The translations under genes were made by a program, and so were the position numbers. Source: Rheinheimera sp. SA_1 (GTDB taxonomy: Bacteria > Pseudomonadota > Gammaproteobacteria > Enterobacterales > Alteromonadaceae). Taken from it: DNA of 64,000 bases. The stretch is taken from NCBI RefSeq assembly GCF_001669775.1, contig NZ_LXWK01000011.1, forward strand, positions 620,001-684,000, in the 5' to 3' direction. Under the pieces are notes generated by a model that was given only the letters and a program-made list of their open reading frames with translations, did no database searches and had not been told where the DNA came from. Below are positions 1 through 48,460 of the stretch, one piece after another; positions within the stretch are counted from its first letter, which is position 1, and the number at the start of each line of letters is the position of its first letter.

Positions 1-471
1 CTGAGTGGCACGCCATAATTCATCAGTTGTCACTAACTGGTGGGCGGGGAAATCAAACCGGCGACCGAACGTTTCTGAGGTAATCCAGGCGTCCGGTTGA
101 CCATCCACCAGAATTTGCCTGATGCGCGCATCCGGATACTTGGGATCAATCGGGATGTACGCCGCCCCTGCACGCTGAATCGCAAGTAAACTGACTATCA
201 GCTCAATGCCGGGCGCAACACTGAGCGCGACCCGACTGATCGACGGTCCAAACTTCGCTAGCAGCGCCCGGCTTATAGTCGTGACCTGCTCATCGAGCTG
301 CGCATAGCTCAACACGATTTGACCATACTCCAGTGCCGCTGCTGCCGGTGCTGTGGCGGCCCGCATCGCCAACAAGCCCGCCAGCGAAAACGACAATCCG
401 CTCGCCTGTTGCTGCCACTGTTGCGACAGCGCCGCATACTGTTGTTTTAAATCGGACAGATTTATGTTCAT
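1..471 (-). CDS. NRPS beginning with an adenylation domain (5' end only)
   Basis: The reading frame is open from an ATG at 471 to the window edge, giving 157 residues, and its 3' end is missing. The protein starts MNINLSDLKQQY and goes straight into an adenylation (A) domain with no condensation domain in front. The A2-type core motif AIQRAGAAYIPIDPKYP is clear at about residues 97-113. A domains activate an amino acid as the adenylate and load it on a carrier domain; the substrate code lies beyond the edge. The start is 10 bases after the stop of the upstream NRPS (481-3717), so it belongs to the same operon. The upstream protein carries a dead A domain, so this one may load that carrier in trans; that is inference. 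A loading or iterative module is the alternative. Confidence 0.85.
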   Translation of the reverse strand, partial: MNINLSDLKQQYAALSQQWQQQASGLSFSLAGLLAMRAATAPAAAALEYGQIVLSYAQLDEQVTTISRALLAKFGPSISRVALSVAPGIELIVSLLAIQRAGAAYIPIDPKYPDARIRQILVDGQPDAWITSETFGRRFDFPAHQLVTTDELWRATQ

Positions 472-480
472 CGTACACAC

Positions 481-3400
481 TCAATATTCAAAAGTATCGA
501 AAGTTTCAGCGCTGGTAGTGGCGACGGCGTTGTGCTCGCGAATATGCATCATGGTCTCGAGGCAACTGCAAAAATCCTGCAAGGTCAGATTGTTAAACAA
601 ATCCTGCGTGGTGACCGGCAAACCAAAGCGTCGCTTAATCTCGTCAATCAGCTGCATCGCCAGCAACGAGTGCCCGCCAAGGTCAAAGAAATTATGCGTC
701 CGCCCGACCGCATCCACCTTCAGTAACTGCTGCCACAGACGGGCAACTAGCTGCTCGGTATGGCCCTGCGGTGGCTCAAAGTGTTGCCGGGTTAACTCAG
801 CCAAATCCGGCACGGGCAGCCAACGATAGTCGATTTCGCCGTTTGCCGAGCGTGGTAAATCTGGCACAACCAGCAACCAATCCGGGGCAAAATATTCGGC
901 AACCTGCCGTTTTACGGTGGCTTTTAGCCGCTCCGGCTGCAAACCATCGGTTTGCGTCCCCACCACAAAGGCTAGGATCCCGGTATGACCCCGCTCATCG
1001 GCCAGGTAGACTGCCGCCGCGGTTTTCACCCCATTCAGTCGACATAGAGCATTTTCGACCTGATCTAAATTGACCGAGAAGCCACGGATCTGGTGTTGCT
1101 GATGTTTGCGTCCCTGTAGACGCAGAGTGCCATCGGTGCTTGCTTTGGCCAGTACATCGCTGCAGCAGGTTTGATCCACCGCTGGCCAGCCTGTGGTCAG
1201 CACGGCGCCAACCGGGGTGGGTGCCACCCCTCCGGTACTGCAGAGCAAGCCCACTTTTTCCGGCAAACAGAGATTCCGCTGCTCATCCCGGCAAGATAAC
1301 TCGCGACCGGGCAGCGCAGTAAACCGCAATCGCTGCGGTGGTTCGGAAGGGAGTGTCGAGACCGCCTGAGTAAATAACCCGCCATGACTGGTCAACAACG
1401 CAAGAATAGTCGCCTCTGGCAATGCAGCGCGCAGTTTTGTCACCAGCGCATCCACCCAGCGTGAGCCCCGGCAGATCAGCCGGTTTAACCGAGGCCAGTC
1501 TTCATGTAATTCCGGATAGGCGGCGACCAGCTCTTCCAGCAGATGCCCGGAGCTTAGTAACCAATCAAATTGTTGCTGCTGACAGTAATCGACGAGGGCA
1601 AAGATATCACGACAAATACCCAGGGCCACCGGCCGCACCACACTCCCCGAAACAACCCCGAACCAAAGCAGTAACATCCGGTCAAAATCAGCCAGTGACG
1701 CCAGTAACGGAATCACCGGGGAAGCGCCACTGACTGCACTCTGGAGCAAGCTGACTTGGCTAAACACCTCGGTATCATGCACAGCCAGCCCCAACGCACC
1801 GGCCCCGTCGAGACGGACATACATCATCCGCGCCGGATGGCTACGCACTACCGTTACCTGCCGGTTGTTCACACTATGCAACTCTTCAATCTGAATGCGT
1901 CGCCGCGGCCAGGCAAGCCCAGTCTGCGAGATATTGCCCGTCAGCACGGTGAGTTGCTCCTGTACCCCTCTGGCAATCGGTATGGAGGCTGAGTCAAGCA
2001 CCACACAGCATCCCAGTTTGGCGCAGGCTACCAAGGCAATCAGATCCTGGCGTAGATTCGTTTGTTCTATCACAACAAACTCACCCGGCAACACGCCCGT
2101 ATCCGTCATCAATGTCAAAAGCCGGTCGCTGTCCATACTTAACTGGCCTGCGGTGATACCACTTTCCGGGTCGGCCAGAACCTGATGTTCCGGCGGCAGT
2201 GTGCTCAGTTGACCTAATAAGGTCTCAACGCCATGTGATTGAGGCATCGGCACCGGCATCGCGACAGTAGCCGGCGTCAGGAACTGACACAGGGACAACG
2301 CGGGCGCAATTACGACCGACTCCATCAGCTCATAAAAGGTCTGTAAGATTGCGGTCACGGTCTGTTCAGCAAAGATATCGCTGTTGTAAGTCAACCAGCC
2401 GCGTAGTCCATCATCAGTTTCACGAAACGTCAGATATAAATCATATTTCGACGTTGTGGTTTCAGCCCCATATTTGGCGATGTCGATGCCCGCAAGACTC
2501 ACTTCGCTTGACGTCTTGTTCTGCAGCACCATCATGACCTGAAATAACGGGGTAATGCTTAGACTCCGGGTATGATTCAGGTGTTCGGTCACTTGTACGA
2601 ACGGAATATCTTGATGACTGAAAGCCTGAATCGTGTTGGTTTTTACCGACGCCAGCACGTCAGTAAACGACTGATTTAAATCAATCTGATTTCGCACAAC
2701 CAGCGTGTTGAGGAAATAGCCAATGACACTATTTAATTCCGGTTTATTGCGGTTATCCACCGGCGTTCCCACCAGAATGTCCTGCTCTTCGCTGAAATAA
2801 CTCAACACGACACTAAACAAGGCCAATAAGCTGATAAACGGCGTTACGCTGTGCTGGCGACCCAACTGAAGGAAACGCCGCGTCAAATCTTTGGATACCG
2901 CAACGTCTAGCGCGCGGCCACGCCCGCTTGGTAAAGCAGGCCGGATATCATCGACCGGCAGATTGAGCAGTGCAGGAGCATCAGCCAGGGTATGTTGCCA
3001 GTACTGAAGCTGTTCACCTATTGTGCCAGCCAGCGTTTCCCGCTGCCACACAGCATAATCCCGGTATTGTATAGGTAGCGGCGGCAGCTCCACGGCGGTT
3101 CCGCCCTGTTTATAATGGGCATAACCAATGCCTAGTTCTTTTAAAAACAATCCCTTGGAGTACCCATCGAAAATAATGTGGTGGAAATTCAGCAACAAGA
3201 GATGATGCTGCGAATGTAGCCGCACCAATTCGAAACGCACCAACGGCCCTCTGCTCAAATCAAACAAGTGCCGGCTGTTCTCGGTCAGTTTTTGCTTGAC
3301 CTGTGCTTCTGCTGCCTCTGCCGTCAGCGCCGACAAATCAATCTGCTGAAACGGTAACGGCGACTGTTGCACCAGTTGGCGCGGCTCTCCACTCACCTCA

Positions 3401-3717
3401 AAAAACACGGTTCTGAGCGCATTATGCCGCTGATAAATCGCAGCAAGGGCTCGACGTAAGGCTTCACAATCCAATGCCCCTTTCAGATGATAGGCGCTGG
3501 CCATGTTGTATTTATGGCTGGCGCCTTCCATCTGCTCCATAAACCACAATCCTTGCTGCGCAAATGAGACTGCCACTGGTTCTGTTGCATCGTGCTGACA
3601 AGGCTGAATACCCGACATGGCCGACGACAAGCTTCTTTCTTTGAATCGCTGTAACAACAACGCTTGCTCTTTTGGCGACAAAGCCGAAAGTTTTTCCTGT
3701 AGTTCCTTTTTGTCCAC
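481..3717 (-). CDS. NRPS module C-A(degenerate)-PCP
   Basis: The protein has 1078 residues and a GTG start with a purine-rich ribosome site (AGGGGG) just upstream. A condensation (C) domain spans about residues 45-490, with an intact HHIIFDG motif near 180, so peptide-bond formation should work. Residues about 500-960 keep the length and some outline of an adenylation domain but have lost its catalytic signatures. There is no SGTTG-type A3 loop (VRLDGAGALGL in its place), no YGPTE, and no TGD. The GRxDxQ loop reads GRKHQQHQIRG and the A10 NGK lysine is replaced (NGEID). A carrier (PCP) domain with LGGHSL follows near residue 1012. The module therefore probably cannot activate its own amino acid. 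The next gene (1-471) opens with an A domain that could serve it. Frameshift decay is unlikely because the frame is open throughout. Confidence 0.9.
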   Translation of the reverse strand: MDKKELQEKLSALSPKEQALLLQRFKERSLSSAMSGIQPCQHDATEPVAVSFAQQGLWFMEQMEGASHKYNMASAYHLKGALDCEALRRALAAIYQRHNALRTVFFEVSGEPRQLVQQSPLPFQQIDLSALTAEAAEAQVKQKLTENSRHLFDLSRGPLVRFELVRLHSQHHLLLLNFHHIIFDGYSKGLFLKELGIGYAHYKQGGTAVELPPLPIQYRDYAVWQRETLAGTIGEQLQYWQHTLADAPALLNLPVDDIRPALPSGRGRALDVAVSKDLTRRFLQLGRQHSVTPFISLLALFSVVLSYFSEEQDILVGTPVDNRNKPELNSVIGYFLNTLVVRNQIDLNQSFTDVLASVKTNTIQAFSHQDIPFVQVTEHLNHTRSLSITPLFQVMMVLQNKTSSEVSLAGIDIAKYGAETTTSKYDLYLTFRETDDGLRGWLTYNSDIFAEQTVTAILQTFYELMESVVIAPALSLCQFLTPATVAMPVPMPQSHGVETLLGQLSTLPPEHQVLADPESGITAGQLSMDSDRLLTLMTDTGVLPGEFVVIEQTNLRQDLIALVACAKLGCCVVLDSASIPIARGVQEQLTVLTGNISQTGLAWPRRRIQIEELHSVNNRQVTVVRSHPARMMYVRLDGAGALGLAVHDTEVFSQVSLLQSAVSGASPVIPLLASLADFDRMLLLWFGVVSGSVVRPVALGICRDIFALVDYCQQQQFDWLLSSGHLLEELVAAYPELHEDWPRLNRLICRGSRWVDALVTKLRAALPEATILALLTSHGGLFTQAVSTLPSEPPQRLRFTALPGRELSCRDEQRNLCLPEKVGLLCSTGGVAPTPVGAVLTTGWPAVDQTCCSDVLAKASTDGTLRLQGRKHQQHQIRGFSVNLDQVENALCRLNGVKTAAAVYLADERGHTGILAFVVGTQTDGLQPERLKATVKRQVAEYFAPDWLLVVPDLPRSANGEIDYRWLPVPDLAELTRQHFEPPQGHTEQLVARLWQQLLKVDAVGRTHNFFDLGGHSLLAMQLIDEIKRRFGLPVTTQDLFNNLTLQDFCSCLETMMHIREHNAVATTSAETFDTFEY

Positions 3718-3726
3718 AACAACCCC

Positions 3727-6700
3727 CTAATCCTGCGTTATCAATTGTTCTGAATGGTGAAGGTCCAGCTGCTCCAATTCAGCCAGTAGCAACGCCAAAT
3801 CATCGTCCTGTACACTGGCCATACTCTGCGAGAAAATCAGGGTCGCCATCGCCTCGACTGTCAAAGCGTTGTAGAGCTGCGCTATCGTCAGCTCGACCAA
3901 AAACTCAGTGCGCAGCAACATCAGTAACTGGCCAAGTAATAAAGAATTACCGCCAATTTCAAAAAAATTGTCCTGAATTCCTATCTCATCTATACCTAGA
4001 ATTTTCTGCCAGATAGCGATCAAACTCAGCTGCACAGGAGACTCGGCGGCAACATAAGGCGTCGAAAGCGCCGGCCTTGCTCTGACCGCCGCCTGTGTGA
4101 CAGCCGCAGGAGACAGACGGCTTTGCTGGGCAAGCCGATAACGCTGGATCACCTCATCGACGACAAATTTACTCACCACCACCTGTGGCTGCGCCAGTTG
4201 TAAAATCTGCTCCAGTAAGCGGCAACCTTCCTGGTCGGAGATCCCCTCATCAAGCGAACGGTCGTCGCGCGTCCGGCTATTTTTTGTCGCCATCCCGCTC
4301 TCGCTCCAGCGACACCAGTTCACCGAGATGGTTGGAAACGTCATGCTTTTCGCCGCCTGACGAACCAGCACATCCATCATGCCGTTCGCTGCACTGTAGG
4401 CATATTGACCAGCGCCCCCTTTCAACGCACTTTGGGAGGAACACAACAGCACAAAATCCGGTGGAAACTGCTGGCAAAGTGTCAGCAGGTGCTGTGTGCC
4501 ACTGACTTTGGGCGCGGCAGTTTTCGAGAGTAGTTCGTCACTGGCCAGCGCGATAATTTTACTGTCTGCAATCCCCGCAGCATGGATCACACCATCAATC
4601 CGCCGCGTGGCGCTCGTCCCGGCAAACATGCTCTGTAAGACCGTAAACTGGCTGACGTCCCCCGCAACCAGCTGCACCGTTGCCGCCTTCTCTCGGATGC
4701 GTTGCAATGCAGCGTCCACTGTTGGCGTTGCTGATGCTACAGCTGGATCGCGGCTTAACAGTATTAAATGCGCCTGATAATGGCTGGCCAGATACTCGGC
4801 AAATACCAGGCCAATCCCGCCCAGCCCACCGATGATCAAATAATTGCCGCCCGTTTTAAGCCGGTGCTGAGGATCTGCAACCGTTGGTGCAACGTTAAAT
4901 TGTCGCTGAAAGCACTGACCCGCCCGAATCACTGTCGGATACATCAGACCGGCGCTTTGCGCCGTTAATTGAGTCACCACGCGAAGATCAGCCGGATCTG
5001 CTGCCGCGACATCCACATCAATCAACCGGCAGGATAATGCCGGATATTCTTGCTCTGCACACAGCAACAGGGCCTGTAAGCGTGCGGTAAGCACGTCACC
5101 AAAGGACGGATCAAACAAGTCCCACAGCGGGGTCTGCAACAGGTTCAGACTGACAGCTCGCCCGGCTGTTTGCCCAACCGCTTTGATCAGCGTCGTACAT
5201 TGGTCGGCTAGCCCGGAGCTTGGGTGCCAGGCAGACGGCAGCAGTAACACTGCCAACGGCTGCGGTTCGACATTCTGCAGGTTTGACTTAGAGGTAACAC
5301 TTTGCCATTCCTGCGCCAGCTGCAAAGCCGGCCCCGGATAAACATCGACGCAGGCGCCAGCCTGACACAGCAGCCTTTGCAGCGTCTCGGTCAGTTGCGC
5401 ATCATCTCCGACAATCAGAAAACAGTGAGTCGCCGGCGAAGCTGTGAGGCTGATTTGCCGCCATTGTGGCAGATGCAGCCAGCTTTCCGGCAACGCGCCG
5501 TTACCGCCGGTCGATGCCAGCGCAGGCTGTACAGCCGCCGTCGGTGTGACCCAATGATCCCGCATCACAGCCACCGGTCCGGGTAAGGCCACAAAATGAC
5601 CGGCACGACCGTCTAACCAGCTTACAAAATTAAGCGGATAACCACGTTGCCATAGCTGAGCGATCGCATCCAACCAACAAGCCTGTTGCTTTCTGATCAT
5701 TTTCGGATGCGGTTGCGAGGCGACTACCGCGCGCGCCAGACCATCACTTTTCAGCAACTGACTCAGCACCTGGCCAGGGCCGACCTCCAGTGCAATCACC
5801 TCAGACAAGCCATGCAGATGCACTGCGGCCTGGTCAAACCGGACACAACTCAGCAACTGTTGCGACCAATAGGCACCATCAAGCACATGACCGGCGGCCA
5901 TCACTGCACCGCTGAGGTTACTAAGCAGCGGCAACGATAACGGCTTGGGTCCTAGCCTATCGACCAGCGTACTGAGGACGGCAGCACTTTGCGCCATCAG
6001 TCGGCTGTGAAATGCATATCGCCGCGAAATCCAGCGATAGCCAATCCCCCGCAAGTCCAACTGGTGCTGAAGGTCCTCCAGCAAGGCAAGTGGCCCGGCA
6101 ATCACCAGATTACCACTGGCGTTAATCGCAGCGATATCCAGCTCTGCTGACAACATGGGCTGCAACATGACCGGACTGCAATCAACCGACAGCATTGCAC
6201 CAGCCGGCGCTGCAGACATCAGTTTGCCGCGCTCACGCACCAGTATCAGCCCCTGCTCCAGACTGAAACAGCCGGCTACCGTGGCTGCAACAAGCTCGCC
6301 CAAACTATGCCCAAGCACCAGTTTTGGCACCGCACCCAGCTGCTGCCAGCAGCAGTACAGGCTGTATTCGACGGCAAACAGCAATGGTTGAACCACCGCC
6401 GTATCGTCAGGGATTGGTTGCCCGTGCTGCAGATAATCTGTTATATCAAGCCCATCGTGGTCTTTTAGGAACTGCGCGCAGCGGTCAAATGTCTGACGAA
6501 AGCACGGTTCGGTCTGGTACAAGTCATTGAGCATGCCAAGGTGCTGAGCGCCCTGGCCTGGAAACATCATCACTAAGGTTGGTTGACCGGCAACAACGGC
6601 ATGCGGTTCGCTCTGAAGGGCTGCACTTAATTCGCCAACCGAGTTGACCACCAGCGCCTGACGAACAGCATGGCTTGGTCTGCCCTGCGCCAGAGTGAGT

Positions 6701-8154
6701 TCAACATTGGCCAGACTGACGGGGGATTCGGCGAGCCTTCGACCAAGCGACGCGGCGCCGTATGCCAGCCGTTCTGTCGTCAGATCAGATAGCAGAATCA
6801 ACCGGTAATCAGCCGCCCCGGCAACCAGGTCCTGAGGTTTCGGGGCATTATCGAACCCGGACAGAATCATATGAGCATTCGTTCCCCCCATGCCAAAAGA
6901 ACTGACAGCCGCCAACCGTCGCTGCGGTGGTGCTGGCCAGTCCATCGTGTCAGCATTCACAAAAAACGGAGAGTGCTCGAGCTGTAACGCCGGATTCGCT
7001 TGCTTAAAATGCAAGGTGGCCGGGATTTTGCCATCGCGCACCGCCAGCGTGGCTTTGAGCAATCCCAACAGTCCGGACGCAGCCCCAAGGTGGCCAAGGT
7101 TGCTCTTCACGGCGCCGAGCGCGCAGTATTGCTGTTTTTCCGTAAAGGCTCGGTACACCGCAGTTAACGCGGCGACCTCAACCGGATCGCCCATCGGTGT
7201 TGCCGTGCCGTGCGCCTCCACAAAGCCAATCTCCGCCGGATCAATCTGTGCATCAGCCAGGGCCGTTGCAATCACCGACGCCTGCCCCTCAATCCCCGGC
7301 GCTGTATAGCCCACTTTGACGGCGCCATCGTTGTTCAGCGCACTACCCTCCAACACGGCCCAAACATCACGTTTTTGCGCAACCGCGTCCTCAAGACGCA
7401 TCATGACCAGCACAACCGCGCCATTCCCGCTGACAGTGCCGCTGGCATCCGCGTCAAAGGTTCGGCAATAACCATCCTTCGACCGGATTCCGCCGGATTG
7501 ATAAAGGTATCCGTGATTATGCAGCGAGGATATCTTGGCACCGCCGACCAGAGCGACGTCACATTCGTGGTCTAGCAAACTTTTACGGGCATGATGGGCG
7601 GCAACCAGTGAACTGGAGCAGGCTGTACTGAAATTGACCGCCGGTCCTTTTAAATTCAGTTTATATGCGATTTGGGTTGCGACGAAACTGTTGTCATTGC
7701 CAAACTGCACCGTTTTGTGGCCAACACTGGCAACAATGTCTGGCCGGCCAGCCAGATTGTTTGGCATATAATCACTGCCGCCGACCCCGGTAAACACCCC
7801 GATCACCAGATTTGGGTCGTCGCGGCGAATGGCCGCGTTGTGCAGCGCATCACTGGCGCAATGCAGCAGCGAGCGTAACTGCGGACCGGCAATCTCCGCT
7901 TCTTTCGGTGTCATGGCAAAAGCGTCAGCGTCAAATGCAGCAATATCGTCCAGCGGTGCTGCCCATTTGACATAGTTATGCTGCTGCAACAGCGCCTGGC
8001 TCACGCCAGCGTTTTTGAGAGTTTCATCGCTTAATTCGCGTAAAAACAAGGTTTTATCGCATAACAAGCGCCAGAACTCTTCCGGATCACGGGTTTTAGG
8101 TAAATGCACGGCGGCACCTACCACGGCTATTTTTTTAGCTGCCTGCAGGCTCAT
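3727..8154 (-). CDS. Type I PKS module KS-AT-KR-ACP
   Basis: One complete polyketide extension module of 1475 residues. The ketosynthase (about 1-430) has the cysteine motif STACSSSL near 178 and both histidines (EAHGTATPMGDP and KSNLGH). The acyltransferase (about 510-810) has GHSLGE near 618 and YAFHS, which points to malonyl-CoA. The ketoreductase (about 900-1290) has GGLGGIG and the Ser/Tyr/Asn set ending YSAAN. The ACP has IGGNSL near 1404. With no DH or ER the unit should be left as a beta-hydroxy acyl chain. I chose the ATG at 8154, preceded by GGAGGAG, over a GTG two codons upstream; this gives a TGATG one-base overlap with the previous NRPS gene. It sits between NRPS modules, so it inserts a two-carbon unit in the peptide. 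Confidence 0.93.
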   Translation of the reverse strand: MSLQAAKKIAVVGAAVHLPKTRDPEEFWRLLCDKTLFLRELSDETLKNAGVSQALLQQHNYVKWAAPLDDIAAFDADAFAMTPKEAEIAGPQLRSLLHCASDALHNAAIRRDDPNLVIGVFTGVGGSDYMPNNLAGRPDIVASVGHKTVQFGNDNSFVATQIAYKLNLKGPAVNFSTACSSSLVAAHHARKSLLDHECDVALVGGAKISSLHNHGYLYQSGGIRSKDGYCRTFDADASGTVSGNGAVVLVMMRLEDAVAQKRDVWAVLEGSALNNDGAVKVGYTAPGIEGQASVIATALADAQIDPAEIGFVEAHGTATPMGDPVEVAALTAVYRAFTEKQQYCALGAVKSNLGHLGAASGLLGLLKATLAVRDGKIPATLHFKQANPALQLEHSPFFVNADTMDWPAPPQRRLAAVSSFGMGGTNAHMILSGFDNAPKPQDLVAGAADYRLILLSDLTTERLAYGAASLGRRLAESPVSLANVELTLAQGRPSHAVRQALVVNSVGELSAALQSEPHAVVAGQPTLVMMFPGQGAQHLGMLNDLYQTEPCFRQTFDRCAQFLKDHDGLDITDYLQHGQPIPDDTAVVQPLLFAVEYSLYCCWQQLGAVPKLVLGHSLGELVAATVAGCFSLEQGLILVRERGKLMSAAPAGAMLSVDCSPVMLQPMLSAELDIAAINASGNLVIAGPLALLEDLQHQLDLRGIGYRWISRRYAFHSRLMAQSAAVLSTLVDRLGPKPLSLPLLSNLSGAVMAAGHVLDGAYWSQQLLSCVRFDQAAVHLHGLSEVIALEVGPGQVLSQLLKSDGLARAVVASQPHPKMIRKQQACWLDAIAQLWQRGYPLNFVSWLDGRAGHFVALPGPVAVMRDHWVTPTAAVQPALASTGGNGALPESWLHLPQWRQISLTASPATHCFLIVGDDAQLTETLQRLLCQAGACVDVYPGPALQLAQEWQSVTSKSNLQNVEPQPLAVLLLPSAWHPSSGLADQCTTLIKAVGQTAGRAVSLNLLQTPLWDLFDPSFGDVLTARLQALLLCAEQEYPALSCRLIDVDVAAADPADLRVVTQLTAQSAGLMYPTVIRAGQCFQRQFNVAPTVADPQHRLKTGGNYLIIGGLGGIGLVFAEYLASHYQAHLILLSRDPAVASATPTVDAALQRIREKAATVQLVAGDVSQFTVLQSMFAGTSATRRIDGVIHAAGIADSKIIALASDELLSKTAAPKVSGTQHLLTLCQQFPPDFVLLCSSQSALKGGAGQYAYSAANGMMDVLVRQAAKSMTFPTISVNWCRWSESGMATKNSRTRDDRSLDEGISDQEGCRLLEQILQLAQPQVVVSKFVVDEVIQRYRLAQQSRLSPAAVTQAAVRARPALSTPYVAAESPVQLSLIAIWQKILGIDEIGIQDNFFEIGGNSLLLGQLLMLLRTEFLVELTIAQLYNALTVEAMATLIFSQSMASVQDDDLALLLAELEQLDLHHSEQLITQD

Positions 8155-35807: not shown

Positions 35808-35808
35808 A

Positions 35809-38800: not shown

Positions 38801-41800
38801 TCGTGGTTACCACAATACAAACTCAGCGCATCAGCGAGTTCCAACGATCCGGCAAACCACAGGGCCAACGGTAGCAAACTGACCGGCGAATCGAGGCCGC
38901 TGCTCCGGATGCCAATTTGTTGCATGTAGCGTAATACAGCCGCCTGAGTCATAAACAATGACACCGCTTCGGCCGGCAACGTCGCCAGGAGATCAGCCTG
39001 ACCGGCCATCTCAGTTTCGAGCGCCGTGAACTGCATACGAATCACCGCAGGCAATAGCTGGAGGTCGGGCGGACAGACGTCACAGAGCTGGATTCTGGCA
39101 ACCGGCTCTGTCGGGGACATGGTCCCGATGCAGCTGATGTCCGTACTCAAACGCTGTAACTGTTGCCTGAGCCCGGTTTTTGATGTCGACACGATGATCT
39201 GTCGGTAAGTCAGCAGCGGGCGCTGCCAGTTATGCGCCTTGCAGATGTCTGTCCAGTCGACCTGTTGTGGCTGATCCAGCCATCCCAGATATCGACGGGC
39301 ATAGGCTTGCAACTCCACCGGGGTTTTTGCGCTGAGTGCCAGCATGGCTGGACCGGCTCGGTGCACGTGGCTAGACTCGGTTTTTAGATAAGCGCTGAGG
39401 ATCAGGTGCGCATTCGTCCCGCTAAAGCCAAATGAGCTGACTGCCGCAACCGGTAAAGCTACACCCGCCGGCCAGTTGCTAACTTTCACGGGAAAATCCA
39501 TTTTTACAGCATCAACCACCAGATGCGGATTGCGCTGCTGCAGGTGGAGGGTCGGCGGGATTTTTTGATTCTGTAAACTCAGCACGGTTTTAATCACACC
39601 AGCCACCCCGGCGGCAGCTTCGGTGTGACCAATATTGGACTTCACAGCCCCAACGAGCAGTGGCTGACGTCGCGCAGTGCCCTGACAATAAACCTGATTC
39701 AGCGCATTGATTTCCACAGGATCGCCCAATGCAGTCCCGGTGCCATGCGCTTCGACATAAGACACTTCGTCAGGCGTGACATTCGCCTGACGCAACGCTT
39801 GCCGGATAACCTGTTGCTGTGCATGACCGTTGGGAGCAGTCAATCCCTGACTCTGGCCATCCTGATTCACCGCCGAACCGCGGATCACTGCCAGAATACG
39901 ATCGCCATCGTCACGAGCCTGACTAAGCGGCTTCAGTAGTAATAAACCACAACCTTCGGCCCGAACATAGCCATTCGCCCGCAGGTCGAAGGTCTTACAG
40001 CGACCATCCGGCGCCAGCATACCGGCCTGACTCAGAACTACATTGGTGTCCGCTGACAGCAGCAGGTTAATACCACCCGCCAGCGCCATTTCACACTCGC
40101 CGGCTCTGATACTCTGGCAAGCCTGATGGATTGCGACCAATGATGATGAGCACGCCGTATCAATCGACATGGCAGGCCCCTGCAAGCCAAAAAAGTACGC
40201 CACTCGTCCGGCAATCACACTGAGGGAGTTACCTGTTCCCATGTAGGCATTCAGCGCTTCAGGTGTCAGCTGTTTCGTGCGCAGGTAGTCATTGGGGCCT
40301 ACTCCCAGATAAACGCCCACAGTTCGGCCTTTTAACGTCTCTGGGTCCACGCCTGCATGCTCAAGGGTCCGCCAGGCCGTCTCCAGAATCACCCGCTGTT
40401 GTGGATCAATATTGATCGCCTCTGCATAGGAGATATTAAAAAATTCGTTAGCAAATAGGCCAATATCACTGATAAGCCCGGCCCATTTGCTGGTCATCTT
40501 GCCGACAGCCGGTGTCGCCGAATAGTATTTCGCCATATCCCAGCGCTGATCAGTTAACTCGGTGATGGCATCTCGACCGGATTGCAACAGGTCCCAGAAT
40601 TGCTCTGGACCATCGACCGCGCCTGGAAACCGGCAATCCAGACCGATAATGGCGATAGGTTCCTGCTCAGACCACGGCGTCAGACTTTGCAAAGATGTCA
40701 CGGCTGCCTGATCTAACAGCATTAATTTCAGAATGTACGCAGACAGCGCACTGATACTCGGGTGATCAAACAACAGGTTGCTCGGCAGGGGCTGCTTGAT
40801 CTCGGCTGACAGTTTGTTTCGTAGAGTCAGCGCAAGCACCGAATCCAGCCCCCACTCAATCAGCGGGACGTGCAGTGCAAGTGCTTGCGAGTCGCGTAAT
40901 CCCAGCACGACTCGGGCACAAGCCTCAATCTTGCCCGCCAGTAGGGACGGACGTAAATCAGCAGCGACCTGACTCAACTCACGGAGCCAGTCTGTCGCAG
41001 GTTGTTCGTCCGCCGCCCCAGCAGCCCGCCAGCGCTGGTACAGCGACACATGGGGGCGTAACTTGGTACGTGCGGCCAGACGCTCATCATCAAACACACA
41101 ACAGATATGGCGTTCTGAGGAGCGAAAATGCCGCCGAAATGCCAGCTGCATCTGCTGACTGCTTTGCTGACCGACAAAACTCTGGGCAATACCAGACTGT
41201 GCCGCGACAGCCATACCGGAGCCATGCAGTGGCCCCCAGTTAAAGCATGTTGCCGGTAGGTTCTGCGCGCGTCTGCACTGATACAAACTATCCAAAAATG
41301 CTGCTGCAGCCGCATAACTGCATTGATGAGGCGGAGCTAAAACCGACGACAACGAGGAGTTCAGCACGAAAAATTCCAGCGTTTTGTCCAGACTCCATCT
41401 ATGTAATTGCCAGGCGCCAAACACCTTGACGGCAGAAACCGACAGCAGATTCGCCCAATCTAACTGACTAATGGATTCATCTGCCAACAAACCGGCCGCA
41501 TGGACAATCCCGCCTACCGGCATGGCAGGTTGCACAACCAGATCCAACTGCTGCTGCACATCTGGTTGGCTCAAATCCAGCCGGGCTGTCAAAATATCAA
41601 CGCCGTCGCGGCGCCAGGCTTCTAATTGCTTCTGCTGCGAATCCTTAAAACAGTTGGAACGGGATAACAAAATCAATTGTCGCGCCCCCAGCTCGACCAA
41701 TGATTTGGCCTGAGCAAAACCAATCTCACCGGTGGCACCGGCGATCAGGTAACTGCGATCCGCCCTTAACTGAGCGAGCTCCACCGAAGCAGCCGACGTC

Positions 41801-44800
41801 GCAGCTGGTTGCAGGCAACGATATTCCAGGCCATTCGCGGTCAAGCGTAGTTGATCTTCAGTCAACGGCGCACTGACAAGCTCCAGCAACACCGAAAACG
41901 GGGTATCTGTGCTGCAATCCAGCTGAATAAGCTGTAAATCCGGTCGCTCCGCCGATAACACCGCATACATCACCCGGCTGATAGCCGCCCATAAGGGTTC
42001 ATCCTGCCCATGGGGTTGTCGTCTGATGATGACTAGCCGGGTCAGTCCATTGGCCGTCCATGTGCTGAGCGGTTGCAGGATGTCCATCTGCTGCCTGACA
42101 ACATGATAAAACGTCGCTGCATCGAAACCGGTACCACAGTCAAGATCTAGGACCAACTGCCAGTTGCCGTCAGCCGCCGACAGGGCCGGCAATACAGTGT
42201 TTAAATCCGTTGGCAGGGGCTGCAGCAGAATATCCGGCTGTTCCGCTGTGACTTCAGCCTTGTCCAGTTGCCCCTGATAGAACCAGATGGTTCTCAGCGC
42301 CGGAGCGGACTTTTTCAGCGCAAGCGACAGCGGCTGCCAACTCAGTGTCCAATCAGGCAGAGAATTCGGCACGGAACCTGCGCCCCCTCTCGCAGTGCGG
42401 GCTTGCACCGGCTTATACCAGTAGGGCTGCCGGTCAAAGGTATACAACGCTAAATCGATTGCCGGATCAACGGGGACGTAGGCCAGCGTCTCCGGTCGAA
42501 GCCTGATGCCGGCAAGGAACAGCGTTTCGGCGCTATGTTGCCATGCGCTATTCCCCTGTCCGGCACGGGCCAGACTGGCCAAAAAGTGATCGGGTGCCGC
42601 CTGGACCAGCGGTCTGATCATTGATAACAACGTATTGCCTGGACCCAGCTCCAGCCAGTGACTGATCCCGCTGTGCTGAGCCTGCAAGACCGCATCAGCA
42701 AAATACACCGGCTCGACGATATGACGGGCCCAGTAGCCAGGGTCGCTAAGCTCAGCGGTCACCCGCCGGCCCTCCAGCGTTGAATATACTGGTATATGCG
42801 GTTGGCCGAATGCAATCGTGTTGGCGATAGTCTGAAAATCAGCGGCGGTTTGCTGCATTAAAGCAGAATGAAACGCATGAGATACTTCGAGCCGCTGGGT
42901 GCGGACTTGCTGCGACGCCAACTGCGCCAGTAATTGGGTTAACTGGGTTTTATCACCAGACACAACAGTGTTGTCGTGGTTGTTTACCGCAGCGATCCCA
43001 AGCCCTGGATGATCTGTCAGCCATTGCCGTACCGTCGCAACGCTGGCAAAAATAACCGCCATCGCCCCATTATCTGGCAAACTGGCCATCAGCAACGCCC
43101 GCTTGCTGATCAAAAACAACGCCTGTTCAGCAGTCAATACGCCAGCCAGACAAGCCGCCGCGTATTCGCCGACGCTATGACCAAGCACCGCCTGCGGCTT
43201 GATCCCACTCGCCAGCCAGGCATCCGACAAAGCCAGTTGTAACGACAGCAACGCGGGCTGGGCATAATAGGTATCGGTCAGCGCGGGCGCGTTGTCGTCC
43301 CATAAAAAGGCAATTAAATCCATCCGATGATGGGTCGCCAGCCACTGCTGACAGCTGTCCAGTCGCTGCCTGAAGGCCATCGATTGTTGATAGAGTTCAC
43401 GCCCAACTCCCCGATACAGCGCGCCTTGTCCGGTGAACACAAAAGCCAGCGCCGGCGCACTTACTGCGCAAGTACTGACAATCTCTTGCTGTAACGCGGC
43501 AATCAGCCCAGTAAGGCTCTGCGCCCGCACACTGGCTTTGTGCTGAAAAAACGGCTCTTGGCGCCAGGCTTTCGCGCAATAGGCCTGCGCCGGTGTGTTG
43601 GTCAGCAGACTTAACTGATAGGCATGCGAGCGCGCTAGCGCCTGCAAAGAAGACGCCGATACCGCACTAAGCGGTAACCATAAATCAGCAGCTGCTTCGG
43701 CCATCGCGGGCACCGGCGCAGTGGCTGGCGCTGCGGCCAGCACAATATGGCTATTGGTTCCGCCAAAACCGAATGAACTGACCCCGGCGATTGCCGTGTC
43801 ACCGGAAGGCCAGGCCTTCGTCGCGGTAACCACATTTAATGAAGCTTTGGCATAATGCAAAAATGAATTCGGAGTATTGAAATTTAAAGATGCCGGTATC
43901 GTTCGGTGGTAGAGCGCCAGGGCTACCTTGATCACGGAAGCAATCCCGGCTGCAGCTTCCAGGTGTCCCAGATTTGTCTTGACGGAACCAATATCGACTT
44001 TATCTGCACGATTATGACTGAAAATCTTGTTTAACGCTTTGAACTCAATCGGATCGCCAAGTTTGGTGCCGGTGCCGTGCGTCTCAATATAACTAACCTG
44101 AGCAGCGCTAACCCCTGCATCCAGCAATGCCGACCGGATCACCGCTTCTTGCGCTTTCGGGTTAGGCGCAGTCAGACCATTACTCTGACCGTCTGAATTC
44201 ACCGCTGACCCCAGCAACTTCGCGTAAACTCGGTATTGTTGCTGTGGGCCCGGTGGCAGGGCTCTGATAAAAATACAACCGACCCCTTCGCCGCGAACAT
44301 AGCCGTCCGCACGATCATCAAAGCTGTGACAGCGATAACTAGGGGACATAAAGCCCGCCCGCAAAAAGCCCAATGTGGTCATCGGTGACAGATTCGCCTG
44401 TACGCCACACACCAGCGCCGACTGACACTGCCCCTGCCGGATTGCTTGCATCGCCAGGTGCAGAGCCACCAGCGACGACGAGCAGGCCGTATCAACAGCC
44501 ATACTGGGTCCGGTAAAACCATAGAAGTAGGACAAGCGGTTCGCAGCGATAGCATGAGCATTGCCCGTCCCCGCTTTCGCCTCACCATGACCGGACACTA
44601 ATGTCGCATATTCGTAAGCCGAGACCCCGACAAACACACCGGTGTCAGATCCCCGGATTTCATCCGGACTCAAGCCGGCATCCGTCAGGGCATGCCAGCT
44701 GGCCTCCAGCAATAAACGCTGTTGTGGATCCATGCACTCGGCTTCTTTGGGAGAGATGTCAAAAAACTGCGGATCAAACTGTTCAATGTCATCGATGTAC

Positions 44801-44997
44801 CCCCCCTGCATACCAGCTAAATCCTGCGCTGCATGTTCAATGGCTGTATCGACAGGCCAAAGTGCGAGCCGCGCAGCCGGAATTGGCCGCACAGCCTGTT
44901 GCTGCTGCGTCAGCAACTGCCAGTACTGTTGACGGTTCTGCGCGCCGGGAAAGCGACATGAGATACCAACAATCGCAATTTCACTTTGGTTAAACAT
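35809..44997 (-). CDS. Bimodular type I PKS, KS-AT-KR-ACP-KS-(AT remnant)-DH-KR-ACP
   Basis: 3062 residues; ATG with TAGGAAAA upstream. Module 1: KS1 (TACSSSL near 172), AT1 (GHSVGEYAAA near 606, SHAFHS: malonyl), KR1 (GATGEIG near 1087; catalytic Tyr present but the Asn four residues on is Ala, SYAAAAAF) and ACP1 (GLDSV near 1384). Module 2: KS2 (TACSSSL near 1616), then about 1870-2180 an AT-like remnant in which the GHSxGE serine motif is gone (GLDSPVSLL in its place). Next come DH (HQLFGQVVVP near 2222, LIDACFQ near 2392), KR2 (GGSGALA; YAAANAYL near 2832) and ACP2 (GVDSL near 2990). It should extend the acyl chain from the FAAL by two malonyl units, the second being dehydrated. Module 2 needs malonate from AT1 or from elsewhere in the cell. 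The stop lies one base before the next ATG. Confidence 0.93.
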   Translation of the reverse strand: MFNQSEIAIVGISCRFPGAQNRQQYWQLLTQQQQAVRPIPAARLALWPVDTAIEHAAQDLAGMQGGYIDDIEQFDPQFFDISPKEAECMDPQQRLLLEASWHALTDAGLSPDEIRGSDTGVFVGVSAYEYATLVSGHGEAKAGTGNAHAIAANRLSYFYGFTGPSMAVDTACSSSLVALHLAMQAIRQGQCQSALVCGVQANLSPMTTLGFLRAGFMSPSYRCHSFDDRADGYVRGEGVGCIFIRALPPGPQQQYRVYAKLLGSAVNSDGQSNGLTAPNPKAQEAVIRSALLDAGVSAAQVSYIETHGTGTKLGDPIEFKALNKIFSHNRADKVDIGSVKTNLGHLEAAAGIASVIKVALALYHRTIPASLNFNTPNSFLHYAKASLNVVTATKAWPSGDTAIAGVSSFGFGGTNSHIVLAAAPATAPVPAMAEAAADLWLPLSAVSASSLQALARSHAYQLSLLTNTPAQAYCAKAWRQEPFFQHKASVRAQSLTGLIAALQQEIVSTCAVSAPALAFVFTGQGALYRGVGRELYQQSMAFRQRLDSCQQWLATHHRMDLIAFLWDDNAPALTDTYYAQPALLSLQLALSDAWLASGIKPQAVLGHSVGEYAAACLAGVLTAEQALFLISKRALLMASLPDNGAMAVIFASVATVRQWLTDHPGLGIAAVNNHDNTVVSGDKTQLTQLLAQLASQQVRTQRLEVSHAFHSALMQQTAADFQTIANTIAFGQPHIPVYSTLEGRRVTAELSDPGYWARHIVEPVYFADAVLQAQHSGISHWLELGPGNTLLSMIRPLVQAAPDHFLASLARAGQGNSAWQHSAETLFLAGIRLRPETLAYVPVDPAIDLALYTFDRQPYWYKPVQARTARGGAGSVPNSLPDWTLSWQPLSLALKKSAPALRTIWFYQGQLDKAEVTAEQPDILLQPLPTDLNTVLPALSAADGNWQLVLDLDCGTGFDAATFYHVVRQQMDILQPLSTWTANGLTRLVIIRRQPHGQDEPLWAAISRVMYAVLSAERPDLQLIQLDCSTDTPFSVLLELVSAPLTEDQLRLTANGLEYRCLQPAATSAASVELAQLRADRSYLIAGATGEIGFAQAKSLVELGARQLILLSRSNCFKDSQQKQLEAWRRDGVDILTARLDLSQPDVQQQLDLVVQPAMPVGGIVHAAGLLADESISQLDWANLLSVSAVKVFGAWQLHRWSLDKTLEFFVLNSSLSSVLAPPHQCSYAAAAAFLDSLYQCRRAQNLPATCFNWGPLHGSGMAVAAQSGIAQSFVGQQSSQQMQLAFRRHFRSSERHICCVFDDERLAARTKLRPHVSLYQRWRAAGAADEQPATDWLRELSQVAADLRPSLLAGKIEACARVVLGLRDSQALALHVPLIEWGLDSVLALTLRNKLSAEIKQPLPSNLLFDHPSISALSAYILKLMLLDQAAVTSLQSLTPWSEQEPIAIIGLDCRFPGAVDGPEQFWDLLQSGRDAITELTDQRWDMAKYYSATPAVGKMTSKWAGLISDIGLFANEFFNISYAEAINIDPQQRVILETAWRTLEHAGVDPETLKGRTVGVYLGVGPNDYLRTKQLTPEALNAYMGTGNSLSVIAGRVAYFFGLQGPAMSIDTACSSSLVAIHQACQSIRAGECEMALAGGINLLLSADTNVVLSQAGMLAPDGRCKTFDLRANGYVRAEGCGLLLLKPLSQARDDGDRILAVIRGSAVNQDGQSQGLTAPNGHAQQQVIRQALRQANVTPDEVSYVEAHGTGTALGDPVEINALNQVYCQGTARRQPLLVGAVKSNIGHTEAAAGVAGVIKTVLSLQNQKIPPTLHLQQRNPHLVVDAVKMDFPVKVSNWPAGVALPVAAVSSFGFSGTNAHLILSAYLKTESSHVHRAGPAMLALSAKTPVELQAYARRYLGWLDQPQQVDWTDICKAHNWQRPLLTYRQIIVSTSKTGLRQQLQRLSTDISCIGTMSPTEPVARIQLCDVCPPDLQLLPAVIRMQFTALETEMAGQADLLATLPAEAVSLFMTQAAVLRYMQQIGIRSSGLDSPVSLLPLALWFAGSLELADALSLYCGNHEPLSFPLAPPQREISHQGQLYCSSQLTSREFWLGSPEVTPTYAETAAAVDVEIQLGLLLNNPANTCSESQLLTLVASWLTAGGQVDWQVVYGEPRGEVLTLPGYPFVQRDCWLPTQQTVMKTGLHPLLGERLPLPMSNEIRFSTTLSQQQLRYLADHQLFGQVVVPGAFYLSAALCALQELAGIAACTLSNIEFQRPLVLRADQTVQFQTLLRQTGEQIYQCQFLSCEQTSGSSWSVHASCDLVLSVMPMSDNSALALMQLGATELQRSTVQSDDFYQAFARRGYQLQGHFRLLADGYSGADYCIRAIEQQGKLIADAQHPLYAGLIDACFQTLASLVAESPDGLAHGQIYIPLALSQMNFRRKPVPGSPLFCGVKKLPQVRFTGVARSFTADISLWDEQGIVATFDQLVVSVASEHVFRQDMAQQSLCYQLDWRPLPASGTELKGQPSPLLVLSATTSFDESAVETIRDDDIDEILARLQKLGKTGDPVPVVCLWPFESATAQSAQVPVALMMRLTTLALALEQQTSCQTRLVLVTRDAVNQSVQPAQASIWALGRTLQAELSGIEVATLDLAQTSLPSIAVLRDLVQATAHTRQLRLTVNQPELPWLSRQRPESTQRYQYRSDGSYLITGGSGALARLLTQHLLSQGATDIVLVSRSGRLPLLDPLPADVRVTAYQADLSEPADVSRLMQQLNGQHQALIGVFHAAGVLLDKPLYRMTDDDFTHVAQAKVTSLLHLEQALGTQRPAFILCFSSAAAMFGAPGQANYAAANAYLSAWAAQPATNPVRRLSISWGPWDVHDGMASALQAQQTYQSRGIRLLQAGVALQLMDMVLQQGVNNLLIADVDWPVFASTLQRRPRWSLYDEVAPAQTAANTDSQNSLAAQVLQADPSLRQTMLADWLTQWLADKLMAQTIDPQQSFLLLGVDSLVALQLRSDVKQLFQIELKIEQVLGDSVNSVNGLTQHLLERLAEPASQVLNGQTEKLTFVHKKTNIMKI

Positions 44998-45066
44998 CTG
45001 ATTTTCCTAAGTATTTATAATTATTCATCCAACCCACTGCAGCTACAGGACCAACGCCAGCCTCAT

Positions 45067-46302: not shown

Positions 46303-46384
46303 GACTGGTGTTCCCAGATGTTGTTCATTCACCACGTACCGCGCAGCCAACAAACAGGCCACGGCGTACGTTCAATCTATCTGT

Positions 46385-48460
46385 TCAAACGACTTCAGAG
46401 GTAGTCTCGGCCAGATGCTCAGCCAGCTCGCCAATGGTTGGGTACTCATAAAACACCGTCGGCGATAACTCACGTTGCAGCAGATGTTGTAATTCCGCGG
46501 TGATCGCAATCGCTGTGGTCGAATTCATTGCAAAGCTGGCAAACGGTTTGTGCGGATTGATATGCAGGACCGGGATCCGGAGCAACTGGGCGATTTTGTC
46601 AGTCAACCACTGCGTCAATTCAGCCTCAGACCAGTGTTTGCCATCCGGCACGGCTGAGTTCTGCGACCAATCCAGAGGGTTCACCTGATCTGCCTCGCGC
46701 TCCAGCGCAATGTCTGTAAGCTCAAAGCAGACCTGCGCCGACCAACTTGCGATCGTGTCAAGTTGTCCACTATGAAAAAGCGTTTTCGCTTGTTCCCGCT
46801 GCACTTTGCCGCTGGTCGTGACCGGCAAACTACCGGTTTTTAACAGCAAAATCTGTGTTGGATACACCCCGTGTACCTGAGCGATGGCATTGTTGATTGC
46901 TGTAAAAATCTGATCGTGATCCGAAGAGCGGGATTGTGTGCGTTCCAACTCATTAACAAGTACCAAACCCTCACCGTTTGCACCATCCACAGCAAAAGTC
47001 GCTCCGCGGAAATCACGCAACGCTACATGACTGTTTTGCGCTGTACGTTCAATATCTTCAGGATAATAATTTTCACCATTGATGATAATTAATCCTTTCA
47101 GACGACCGGTTACATACAACTCACCTTGTTCATCGCAAAACCCAAGGTCGCCGGTACGCATGTAAAAGCCTGGTAAATCGACACATTCCGCTGAAAAGTT
47201 CTGCGTGGTCAGCACTGGGTCGTTGATGTAACCGCGTCCGACACTATCACCCTGCACCCAAATTTCGCCGATTTCAAAAGCCTCACAGCGTCGCTTTTGG
47301 TCTGGGCAGACAATTTCAATGCGAACGCCTGGACGCGCCAACCCGTTACTTACCAGCGATCTGCCCGGCTCATCCGCCGCAGCCAGCTCTGCTTTGCTGG
47401 TTTTCAGGCTTTGCTGACGTACTTTCAGTGTTTTATATGCGCTGGCTTTGTCGCCACCACTGACCATCAGTGTATTTTCCGCTAGGCCATAACACGGATA
47501 AAACGCCTGTTGTTTAAAGCTTGCGTCTTTGAAAAAATCGTAAAACGCCTGCATCGTCTGATGATCAACTGGTTCAGCGCCGTTAAAAGCCAGGTCCCAG
47601 CTAGATAAATCCAGCTCAGCTTTTTGCTCGGGCGTGATCCGGTCCAGACATAACCGGTACGCAAAGCTTGGCCCGCCCGTTGTATTGACCCGACGGGCTG
47701 TAATTTCCTGTAGCCAGCGAAACGGGCTTTTCACAAAATGAGTAGGCGACATTAACGCGACGGTAAATCCGGCGTACATTGGTTGCAAGATACAACCAAT
47801 CAGACCCATGTCGTGGTAGGCTGGCAACCAACCCAACCCCTGTGTTTCCCGGTGATGTCCAAACGCATTTTTGATGACCTCACTGTTATGCAGCAAATTT
47901 TGCTGGGTGACCTGAACGCCTTTTGGGGTACCGGTAGACCCGGAAGAGAACTGCAAAAAGGCTAAATCATCAGCGCGGAAATCCGGTCGTTGCCAGTCGT
48001 TGTGCTGATTCTGTGAAAAGGATTGAACATCAAAAATTTTAGCCTGTGCAATCGCCGCAAAGTCAGGGGCAAATAACGCGAGTTTTTCCGCTACGGCGGC
48101 GGTGGTGAGAATATGGCGAATTCCGCCCTGCTGTAAAATACTGTTGATGCGTTCAAACTGTTCCGGCCGCTTTTGCGGCGGTGCCGCGGGTACCGGTACA
48201 GCGTGACCATAACTGCATCCATAGAAAGCCCGGATAAACAACTCATTATCGGATAACAGCAGTAACACGTTCTGGCCGGCCAGTCCTTCCTGGCGGACTA
48301 CGGTGGCGAAACGCTGCGACGCCTCATCAAGCTCAGCAAAACTCAGCTGGGTATTGTCATGCGCGGATTCTTTAATAAAGACAACATAACTTTTATCAGG
48401 TGTTTCAGCCGCTCGCAGCCGGGCTAGGTCGCACAAACTAACAACCGAATTTTCCCGCAT
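46385..48460 (-). CDS. Fatty-acyl-AMP ligase fused to an acyl carrier domain (assembly-line starter)
   Basis: 691 residues. The FAAL part (about 10-590) has QFSSGSTGTPKGV near 175, the FAAL-typical WLPAYHDMGLIG, YPCYGLAENTL, MRTGDLG and GRLKGLIIINGENYYPEDIE. FAALs activate a free fatty acid as acyl-AMP and pass it directly to a carrier protein rather than to CoA. A carrier domain follows (about 610-685), whose serine sits in FAMNSTTA near 643; the residue before the Ser is Asn rather than the usual Asp. The ATG at 48460 is preceded by GAGGGGAAAATTT, a strong ribosome site, so the longer frame starting at 48514 is rejected. This is the first gene of the operon and supplies the lipid starter to the KS of 35809-44997. 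The fatty-acid length cannot be read from the sequence. Confidence 0.93.
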   Translation of the reverse strand: MRENSVVSLCDLARLRAAETPDKSYVVFIKESAHDNTQLSFAELDEASQRFATVVRQEGLAGQNVLLLLSDNELFIRAFYGCSYGHAVPVPAAPPQKRPEQFERINSILQQGGIRHILTTAAVAEKLALFAPDFAAIAQAKIFDVQSFSQNQHNDWQRPDFRADDLAFLQFSSGSTGTPKGVQVTQQNLLHNSEVIKNAFGHHRETQGLGWLPAYHDMGLIGCILQPMYAGFTVALMSPTHFVKSPFRWLQEITARRVNTTGGPSFAYRLCLDRITPEQKAELDLSSWDLAFNGAEPVDHQTMQAFYDFFKDASFKQQAFYPCYGLAENTLMVSGGDKASAYKTLKVRQQSLKTSKAELAAADEPGRSLVSNGLARPGVRIEIVCPDQKRRCEAFEIGEIWVQGDSVGRGYINDPVLTTQNFSAECVDLPGFYMRTGDLGFCDEQGELYVTGRLKGLIIINGENYYPEDIERTAQNSHVALRDFRGATFAVDGANGEGLVLVNELERTQSRSSDHDQIFTAINNAIAQVHGVYPTQILLLKTGSLPVTTSGKVQREQAKTLFHSGQLDTIASWSAQVCFELTDIALEREADQVNPLDWSQNSAVPDGKHWSEAELTQWLTDKIAQLLRIPVLHINPHKPFASFAMNSTTAIAITAELQHLLQRELSPTVFYEYPTIGELAEHLAETTSEVV

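Follow-up and report, generated by a model that had tools for sequence, protein, structure and literature searches.

A gene cluster headed by a fatty-acyl-AMP ligase in Rheinheimera sp. SA_1 is predicted to make and export an acidic, thiazole-bearing lipopeptide

The closest published relative that we found for the gene cluster analysed here is the cyanochelin B cluster of Leptolyngbya sp. NIES-3755 (AP017310.1; PMC12628792). According to the accessible part of that report, cyanochelin B is a product of a polyketide synthase/nonribosomal peptide synthetase (PKS/NRPS) line primed by a fatty-acyl-AMP ligase (FAAL), with a Cys-derived ring (a thiazoline) and two beta-hydroxyaspartates (beta-OH-Asp), in the order methyl-thiazoline, Phe, Gly, OH-Asp, Ser, OH-Asp, ethanolamine. 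The fatuamide pathway includes a TauD/TfdA enzyme with a predicted role in Asp hydroxylation, as stated in the accessible parts of PMC12210259 and PMC11877528. Here we describe a 69-kb cluster from Rheinheimera sp. SA_1, whose 5.16-Mb genome is assembled in 22 contigs. About two thirds of it lie in a 64,000-nucleotide stretch of contig NZ_LXWK01000011.1 (C1:620001-684000, hereafter the window). We consider it probable that one FAAL-primed PKS/NRPS line encoded here makes and exports an acidic, thiazole-bearing lipopeptide, which would be a new scaffold of this kind.

A single-strand cluster with a FAAL at its head

The cluster spans C1:599484-668514 on one strand, with C1:620001-668514 inside the window. 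Extending the sequence leftward, as a preliminary description of the window had proposed, uncovered the same-strand continuation to C1:599484, and these 20.5 kb beyond the window edge include a thioesterase (TE), two exporters and a GMC oxidoreductase. All 12 cluster genes in the window lie on the minus strand with intergenic gaps of -14 to +69 nt. Across the whole cluster the gaps range from -26 to +109 nt, the sole exception being 251 nt before the free TE, and none of the 20 frames contains an internal stop. The domain calls in the window reach Pfam E-values down to 1e-200, far beyond chance. With a FAAL and its carrier at the head, PKS and NRPS modules behind them and a terminal TE, the locus has the make-up of a FAAL-primed hybrid PKS/NRPS cluster. 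The preliminary description had seen eleven same-strand genes running from the FAAL to an NRPS cut by the window edge. That run is real, and the gene cut at the edge is NRPS5, but the genes number 12, and position 48460, given as the FAAL end, is an ATG inside a GTG-started frame (46385..48514). The observation was thereby partly confirmed, being real as described but incomplete, and its interpretation was partly supported. Genes, gene order, domains, motifs, pocket codes and the duplication below were read directly from the DNA and its translations; positions without a contig prefix are window positions on the minus strand.

Fatty-acyl start, pocket codes and the thiazole module

The first protein, FAAL-T (46385..48514), combines a fatty acyl-AMP ligase and a carrier (Pfam AMP-binding, DIP2-like AMP domain and PP-binding); the fatty acyl-AMP ligase models of NCBIfam are among its high-ranking matches, though none reaches its cut-off. 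It would load a fatty acid, to which PKS1 (35809..44997) would add at least one malonate unit. PKS1 comprises ketosynthase-acyltransferase-ketoreductase-acyl carrier protein (KS-AT-KR-ACP) and then KS-AT0-DH-KR-ACP, where AT0 marks an AT region without its motifs and DH a dehydratase. The KS Cys, GHSxG and HAFH or YAFH motifs are present in PKS1 module 1, PKS2 and PKS3.

We read the nine pocket positions of each adenylation (A) domain against a GrsA A-domain ruler, and the residues given are what we take the codes to mean. NRPS1 (28098..35807) is organised as TubC docking domain-C-A(Asn)-T-Cy-A(Cys)-Ox-T, with C, T, Cy and Ox denoting condensation, carrier, cyclization and oxidase domains. Its pockets read DATKVGEVG (Asn-like) and DLYNMSLIW (Cys). 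The two pockets of NRPS2 are identical (DLTKLGHVG, Asp), and that of NRPS3 reads DLTKIGHIG (Asp), in line with the Asn/Asp-like residue, Cys and three Asp read earlier from the window. The other codes are DTESIGSVV in NRPS5, DVTDLAAVY in NRPS7 and, taken by eye from an A-domain alignment, DLERAANIT in NRPS6.

NRPS1 would thus add Asn and then a Cys closed to a thiazole. The Cys module contains both the Cy motif and the Cys code, and the Cys A domain carries a divergent Ox-like insert of the SagB/BmdC type (28698..29810), consistent with the thiazole already proposed from the window; a thiazole-forming module would combine a Cy domain, a Cys A domain and a flavin Ox domain. The insert stretch (28698-29900) scores 33.5 bits with TIGR03605 (E 2.7e-8), a significant similarity that stays below the cut-off of 78.4, matches BmdC oxidase alone in the PDB (E 0.07-0.25) and has no match in Pfam. 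PKS2 (22837..28101; KS-AT-KR-DH-ACP) would next add an unsaturated C2 unit, consistent with the single unsaturated ketide placed after the thiazole before. Its DH lies downstream of the KR. Collinear matches of 25-30% over KR and DH occur in G042:C18 (query 120-733) and on a Chroococcidiopsis plasmid (query 88-749), so this order is not unique.

A predicted beta-hydroxyaspartate unit and an aspartate run

Downstream of PKS2, a free-standing TubC docking plus condensation domain (21209..22840; LCL class, HHIISDG) would join the PKS2 chain to Asp on NRPS2. It is followed by a TauD-type Fe(II)/2-oxoglutarate dioxygenase (20248..21222; PF02668, E 1e-42), a predicted Asp beta-hydroxylase. NRPS2 (11345..20200) then reads interface-A(Asp)-T-E0-C(DCL)-A(Asp)-T-E, where E denotes epimerization and E0 an E domain without its HH motif. 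Its interface domain (19031..20200) is C-like, with DAQLVDT replacing HHxxxDG. The TauD gene thus lies beside an Asp module whose C-like interface domain lacks HHxxxDG, the arrangement expected of a beta-OH-Asp module with an interface domain, and TauD, docked by this domain, would hydroxylate the first NRPS2 Asp at its beta carbon, as the preliminary description had thought probable for one Asp.

To classify these domains we used class hidden Markov models (HMMs) that exclude the cluster's own sequences and were built from 27 E, 27 DCL, 17 interface (chosen by motif), up to 68 LCL and 13 other domains. The first 390 residues of NRPS2 score 78.7 bits with the interface HMM, against 50.4 with the mixed 'other' class and 27.6 with LCL. 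NRPS2 E1 and E2 score as E (319 and 393), and NRPS2 C2 and the NRPS3 C domain as DCL (336 and 446). The best foreign matches of the NRPS2 N-terminus are the cyanochelin B interface domains (CcsL 26%, BAU16012 25%), in a BLAST search whose E-values were computed for a small set of about 30 proteins. In a tree of C segments of at least 250 aa the placement of this domain is weakly supported (0.23), so its assignment relies on the class HMMs and BLAST.

The hydroxylase itself is 51% identical to cyanochelin CcsK, and the best of the 50 named relatives found are cyanobacterial (up to 57%). In each of the 11 cyanobacterial loci fetched, TauD is immediately followed by an interface-class domain and an A domain, and 10 of these loci have a C domain just upstream of it, both as seen here. 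We also built a 70-row TauD tree from pieces of at least 200 aa scoring above 120 bits, leaving out L065 (own locus). The enzyme groups there with nine from its bacterial family and one Flexibacter enzyme (94/80). It falls outside a 33-row, mostly proteobacterial group (100/100), which contains the FAAL-linked loci of Delftia, Herbaspirillum and Cupriavidus as well as a single locus of its own family, L076. Given the long branch of the enzyme, its placement, including the link to cyanobacterial enzymes, is not firm. The same genome has a second, much larger NRPS region of about 140 kb (C19:14671-157007; loci L106, L107 and L109-L115), in which frames reach 7,350 aa and a separate TauD gene lies at C19:66490-67512.

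Since the cluster contains one free-standing hydroxylase gene, one beta-OH-Asp is expected. E1 reads PPLAVDG in place of the HHLLVDG of E2; with the HH motif lost from E1, E2 alone appears functional, and a single D-Asp is to be expected, as had been anticipated. NRPS2 would accordingly continue with D-Asp, NRPS3 (8154..11348; C(DCL)-A(Asp)-T) would add a third Asp, and PKS3 (3727..8160; KS-AT-KR-ACP) a beta-hydroxy C2 unit, which agrees with the later beta-hydroxy ketide of the preliminary description.

Such a run of beta-OH-Asp, D-Asp and Asp could also bind calcium, which would make the product a calcium-dependent acidic lipopeptide antibiotic. This idea is in keeping with the three consecutive Asp modules, one of them probably hydroxylated, and with the presence of exporters rather than uptake genes. 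Calcium-dependent lipopeptides, however, carry a DXDG motif with Gly after the last Asp, and here the last Asp is followed by a PKS module; we regard this alternative as quite improbable.

The two Asp A-T units of NRPS2 (17407..19034 and 12913..14540) share 1,628 identical bases, 4,494 apart; the repeated stretch starts in the C-A linker and stops shortly after the GGDSI motif of the carrier. This is the sole exact repeat of at least 200 nt in 139 kb around the cluster, and 170 kb of C19 and 50 loci (L015-L064) yielded no such repeat. We take it for a very recent copying event; the flanks of the two copies differ, which makes an assembly error less likely. Exchange of A domains within a genome is known, as described in the accessible part of PMC9205934, and a recent natural copying of an A-T block, if this is one, is informative about the points at which NRPS modules may be split and fused.

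Complementary losses in NRPS4 and NRPS5

NRPS4 (481..3717; C-A0-T) keeps its C motif, HHIIFDG, and its carrier Ser, and its adenylation core is decayed: the A region gives an AMP-binding score of 22.9 bits over just 66 residues, under the cut-off, the A3 motif is absent, and Glu stands at the A10 Lys position. NRPS5 (A-T0; window 1..480, whole gene C1:618594-620480) has an intact A domain with A3 and the A10 Lys, and its carrier reads GGTV, having lost the Ser that the other 14 of the 15 cluster carriers keep. As a control, the Ser is present in 191 of 191 carriers from the C19 region and from related loci. The model behind this control had been trained on carriers with Ser; the NRPS5 carrier itself scores 34 bits with it, so similarly decayed carriers could have been seen. 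Among 133 C..T modules, six fail the A3 pattern and five the A10 pattern, and both are failed by three only, namely NRPS4 and one module each in L100 and L103. The module at L100:548-10072 keeps a Lys in a changed motif and that at L103:10284-20000 has Arg; these two are possibly further cases of a changed or decayed A domain.

Because the losses are complementary, we read the pair as one working module over two proteins. In this tentative proposal, which we rate a little short of evenly balanced, NRPS5 would charge the NRPS4 carrier in trans, perhaps with a basic residue, and perhaps also the last carrier of NRPS7. One residue would then perhaps be used twice, on NRPS4 and on the A-less last carrier of NRPS7. 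No report of such a complementary A/T loss surfaced in the literature searched, where subscription papers were mostly outside reach. If true, the pair would represent a natural cooperation of A domain and carrier across two proteins, each partner lacking the other's part.

We also weighed whether NRPS4 and NRPS5 are dead and skipped, with PKS3 passing the chain to NRPS6 in a decaying or mosaic cluster. Such a history would suit the two adjacent decayed domains, the AT that lacks its motifs and the E domain that lacks HH, and also a C-like fragment ahead of the A domain of NRPS6, for which neither the class HMMs nor Pfam gave a match. Yet no internal stop interrupts any of the 20 cluster frames, and the surviving parts of NRPS4 (HHIIFDG, carrier Ser) complement those of NRPS5 (A core, A10 Lys), so we hold the skipping of both proteins to be rather unlikely.

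Release, export and the weighing of the proposed assembly

The left end of the cluster lies outside the window, on the same strand. At the start of NRPS6 (C1:614204-618619) stands a docking domain, perhaps followed by another (13.7 bits, E 0.07). Its C-like fragment of about 260 aa between C and A (C1:616010-616792; L014:11010-11792) appears by eye to be the rear half of a C domain, and has a weak BLAST match to a cyanochelin C domain (E 8e-4). NRPS7 (C1:602754-608633; C-A-T-C-T-TE) ends with a module lacking an A domain. NRPS6 and NRPS7 would add two residues, after which the last C-T-TE would be loaded in trans or by-passed, and the TE would release or close the chain.

Genes for a HlyD-like adaptor, an ABC ATPase and a MacB/ADOP permease lie between NRPS6 and the free TE (C1:608686-609420). 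Beyond NRPS7 follow an ABC exporter (C1:601010-602719) and the GMC oxidoreductase (C1:599484-600947). The ABC exporter passes the cut-off of the cyclic-peptide model TIGR01194 (351 bits; cut-off 286); it scores higher with NF007813, but below the cut-off of that model. The permease passes the ADOP model TIGR03434 (639 bits; cut-off 622), and the adaptor reaches 80 bits with the darobactin adaptor model DarC, whose cut-off is 450. In four of 11 same-family loci (L096, L097, L101 and L102), HlyD, ATPase and MacB genes form a contiguous set no more than about 6 kb from TauD. The two systems would export the product.

Several points weigh against this assembly. First, PKS1 module 2 keeps its KS Cys, and its second AT region contains neither GHSxG nor HAFH, with no Pfam match for the AT0 stretch. 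A PF00698 search of the whole genome found no free AT for it, the matches falling at five places: three in the cluster, one at C12:183120 in a 329-aa frame taken for FabD, and one at C1:136537. This last match (C1:136537-137466) is an acyltransferase domain within a 2,152-aa frame far from the cluster. With the AT motifs gone and no free AT, this step may not extend the chain. Of the two ketide extensions originally proposed before Asn, one therefore appears sure, and the second, which would need a borrowed AT, is unsure. Second, the sequence YAAAA in the KR of PKS1 module 1 lacks the usual Asn, and this KR may therefore not reduce. Third, the probably dead E1 precedes a C domain of the DCL type, for which a D residue is the normal substrate. 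The Ox score far below the NCBIfam cut-off and the missing Pfam match make a thiazoline possible in place of the thiazole.

Towards the end of the line, the C-terminal AMP-binding subdomain of NRPS4 still scores 36.6 bits, above its cut-off, and both NRPS4 and the last NRPS7 module are without an A domain, yet there is one spare A. The residue of NRPS5 is perhaps basic, by a weak resemblance to Lys codes, and the NRPS6 and NRPS7 codes have no residue assigned. The HlyD-ATPase-MacB set is absent in four of the 11 family loci (L100, L103, L104 and L108), scattered in L098 and reduced to a MacB piece in L099 and L105, which are short loci. Every chemical step and the stereochemistry are accordingly worded here as predictions, as are the action of the split module, the export of the product and its role.

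The cluster lacks nearby iron-uptake genes

The beta-OH-Asp, the Asp carboxylates and the thiazole could together hold Fe(III), and the product could then be a siderophore or another metallophore of the cyanochelin kind with its uptake genes elsewhere. In favour of this, the hydroxylase-interface-Asp module is common to the cyanochelin B cluster, whose product, in the accessible part of its report (PMC12628792), is likewise FAAL-primed and thiazoline-bearing, and the genome encodes 54 TonB receptor barrels. The nearest of these, however, lies at C1:533617-535077, 64 kb from the cluster end, and the sole FecCD permease and the sole PF01497 protein of the genome sit together on C16. A transporter rule for metallophores looks for a PF00593, PF01032 or PF01497 gene near the NRPS; here PF00593 is 64 kb off, and PF01032 and PF01497 occur once each, on C16. 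A hydroxylase rule asks for membership of the IBH_Asp, TBH_Asp or CyanoBH_Asp group, as given in the accessible part of PMC12971057; in the TauD tree the present enzyme, on its long branch, stands outside the 33-row group and not firmly with the cyanobacterial enzymes. The single hydroxylase gene, with one beta-OH-Asp expected, and the position of the enzyme outside the 33-row group with the FAAL-linked enzymes would also speak against a metallophore.

The sole Fur-box-like match in the window (20625-20643; three mismatches, none expected by chance) lies inside the TauD coding sequence. The window scan found no Fur box at a gene start, and L013 and L014 gave no match at all. Pfam searches of 20 proteins, two of them belonging to the exporters of the cluster and one to its TE, gave the siderophore idea no support either.

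A siderophore role is thus not supported, with exporters in place of nearby TonB, FecCD or PF01497 genes and of a Fur box at a gene start. The preliminary description had seen no siderophore gene, and the genome searches found no TonB, FecCD or PF01497 gene near the cluster; of the TonB receptor, exporter and TE it had suggested looking for, the exporters and TE were found in the cluster, and the nearest receptor barrel 64 kb away. Its suggestion of iron chelation from beta-OH-Asp and thiazole loses ground in view of the remaining cluster genes and the genome. Considering the distant iron-uptake genes together with the cyclic-peptide and MacB-like exporters, we favour, with reasonable confidence, an exported antibiotic or surfactant-like lipopeptide, and consider a metallophore unlikely. 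If so, a siderophore-type beta-OH-Asp module is probably used here in a non-siderophore setting.

Neighbouring genes

Between FAAL-T and PKS1 lies a cytochrome P450 gene (45067..46362; PF00067, E 1e-31; haem motif FAAGRHFCLG), whose best NCBIfam model, TIGR04538, stays below cut-off. Just upstream of the FAAL (49083-52159), a lipoprotein-like beta-lactamase-family hydrolase gene stands beside a BlaR1-type M56 peptidase-ankyrin fusion. We considered the former, a serine beta-lactamase-family gene (49083-50348), as a cluster member or self-resistance enzyme. It has strong homologues (53-61%) in 12 of 21 other genus genomes, while PKS2 gives weak matches (E 1.5e-9 and 8e-5) in only two of the 15 other genus genomes of the family sample, so it is probably just a neighbour. 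Left of the cluster are a 386-aa gene without a Pfam family, then valyl-tRNA synthetase, HolC, M17 peptidase and LptF/LptG domain genes. Elsewhere on the contig, C1:975827-1012560 holds another series of frames with A domains, the longest of 3,690 aa, which match the FAAL query.

Comparison with known systems

We searched for relatives of the cluster with the PKS2 KR-DH region in samples of genomes, so that whole-cluster relatives may exist elsewhere; the contigs of named genomes were scanned with TauD. Matches were present in 51 of 294 other family genomes (best-scoring 30%, highest listed identity 37%) and in 55 of 368 other class genomes (best-scoring 29%, highest listed identity 36%), where the highest-identity matches cover short stretches and at most three (family) or two (class) candidates were scored per genome. 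All 44 plasmid records stayed below 60%, the 10 listed being at 23-28%. The preliminary description knew of no described product with this order; none surfaced in the literature searched either, though cyanochelin B is of a similar kind. The module kinds and the class are known ones; our searches did not turn up the module order, the Asn-thiazole-ketide-Asp3 core or the NRPS4/NRPS5 pair.

Lusichelins and fatuamide A, as far as the accessible parts of PMC12210259 and PMC11877528 describe them, share a PKS/NRPS with a thiazol(in)e, but start from salicylate, whereas this line starts with a FAAL.

Syringomycin-type trans loading shares a C-T-TE without an A domain, a free A-T-like protein and a free-standing Asp hydroxylase. 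That type uses a free A-T protein with a working carrier and an aminoacyl shuttle. Here, in contrast, the carrier of the free A protein NRPS5 lacks the Ser, and a second possible acceptor, NRPS4, adjoins it.

The cyanochelin B cluster comes closest. Common to both are a FAAL-primed PKS/NRPS, a KS and an AT lacking its motifs ahead of a Cy-A(Cys) module, and a free-standing hydroxylase followed by an interface-A-E Asp module, with identities of 41% for the FAAL, 44% for PKS1, 45% for Cy-A, 51% for the hydroxylase and 26% for the interface domain. Neither the cyanochelin B module order nor two hydroxylase genes are found here: the product order and A codes differ, and cyanochelin B has a second, NRPS-fused hydroxylase against the one gene of this cluster. 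Its Cys module contains a methyltransferase, unlike that of NRPS1, and beside it lie genes with ferric-receptor and iron-ABC-transporter annotations, which is not so here. Finally, the cyanochelin B counterpart BAU16014 is without the KS Cys, GHSxG and HAFH, whereas PKS1 module 2 of Rheinheimera sp. SA_1 keeps the KS Cys.

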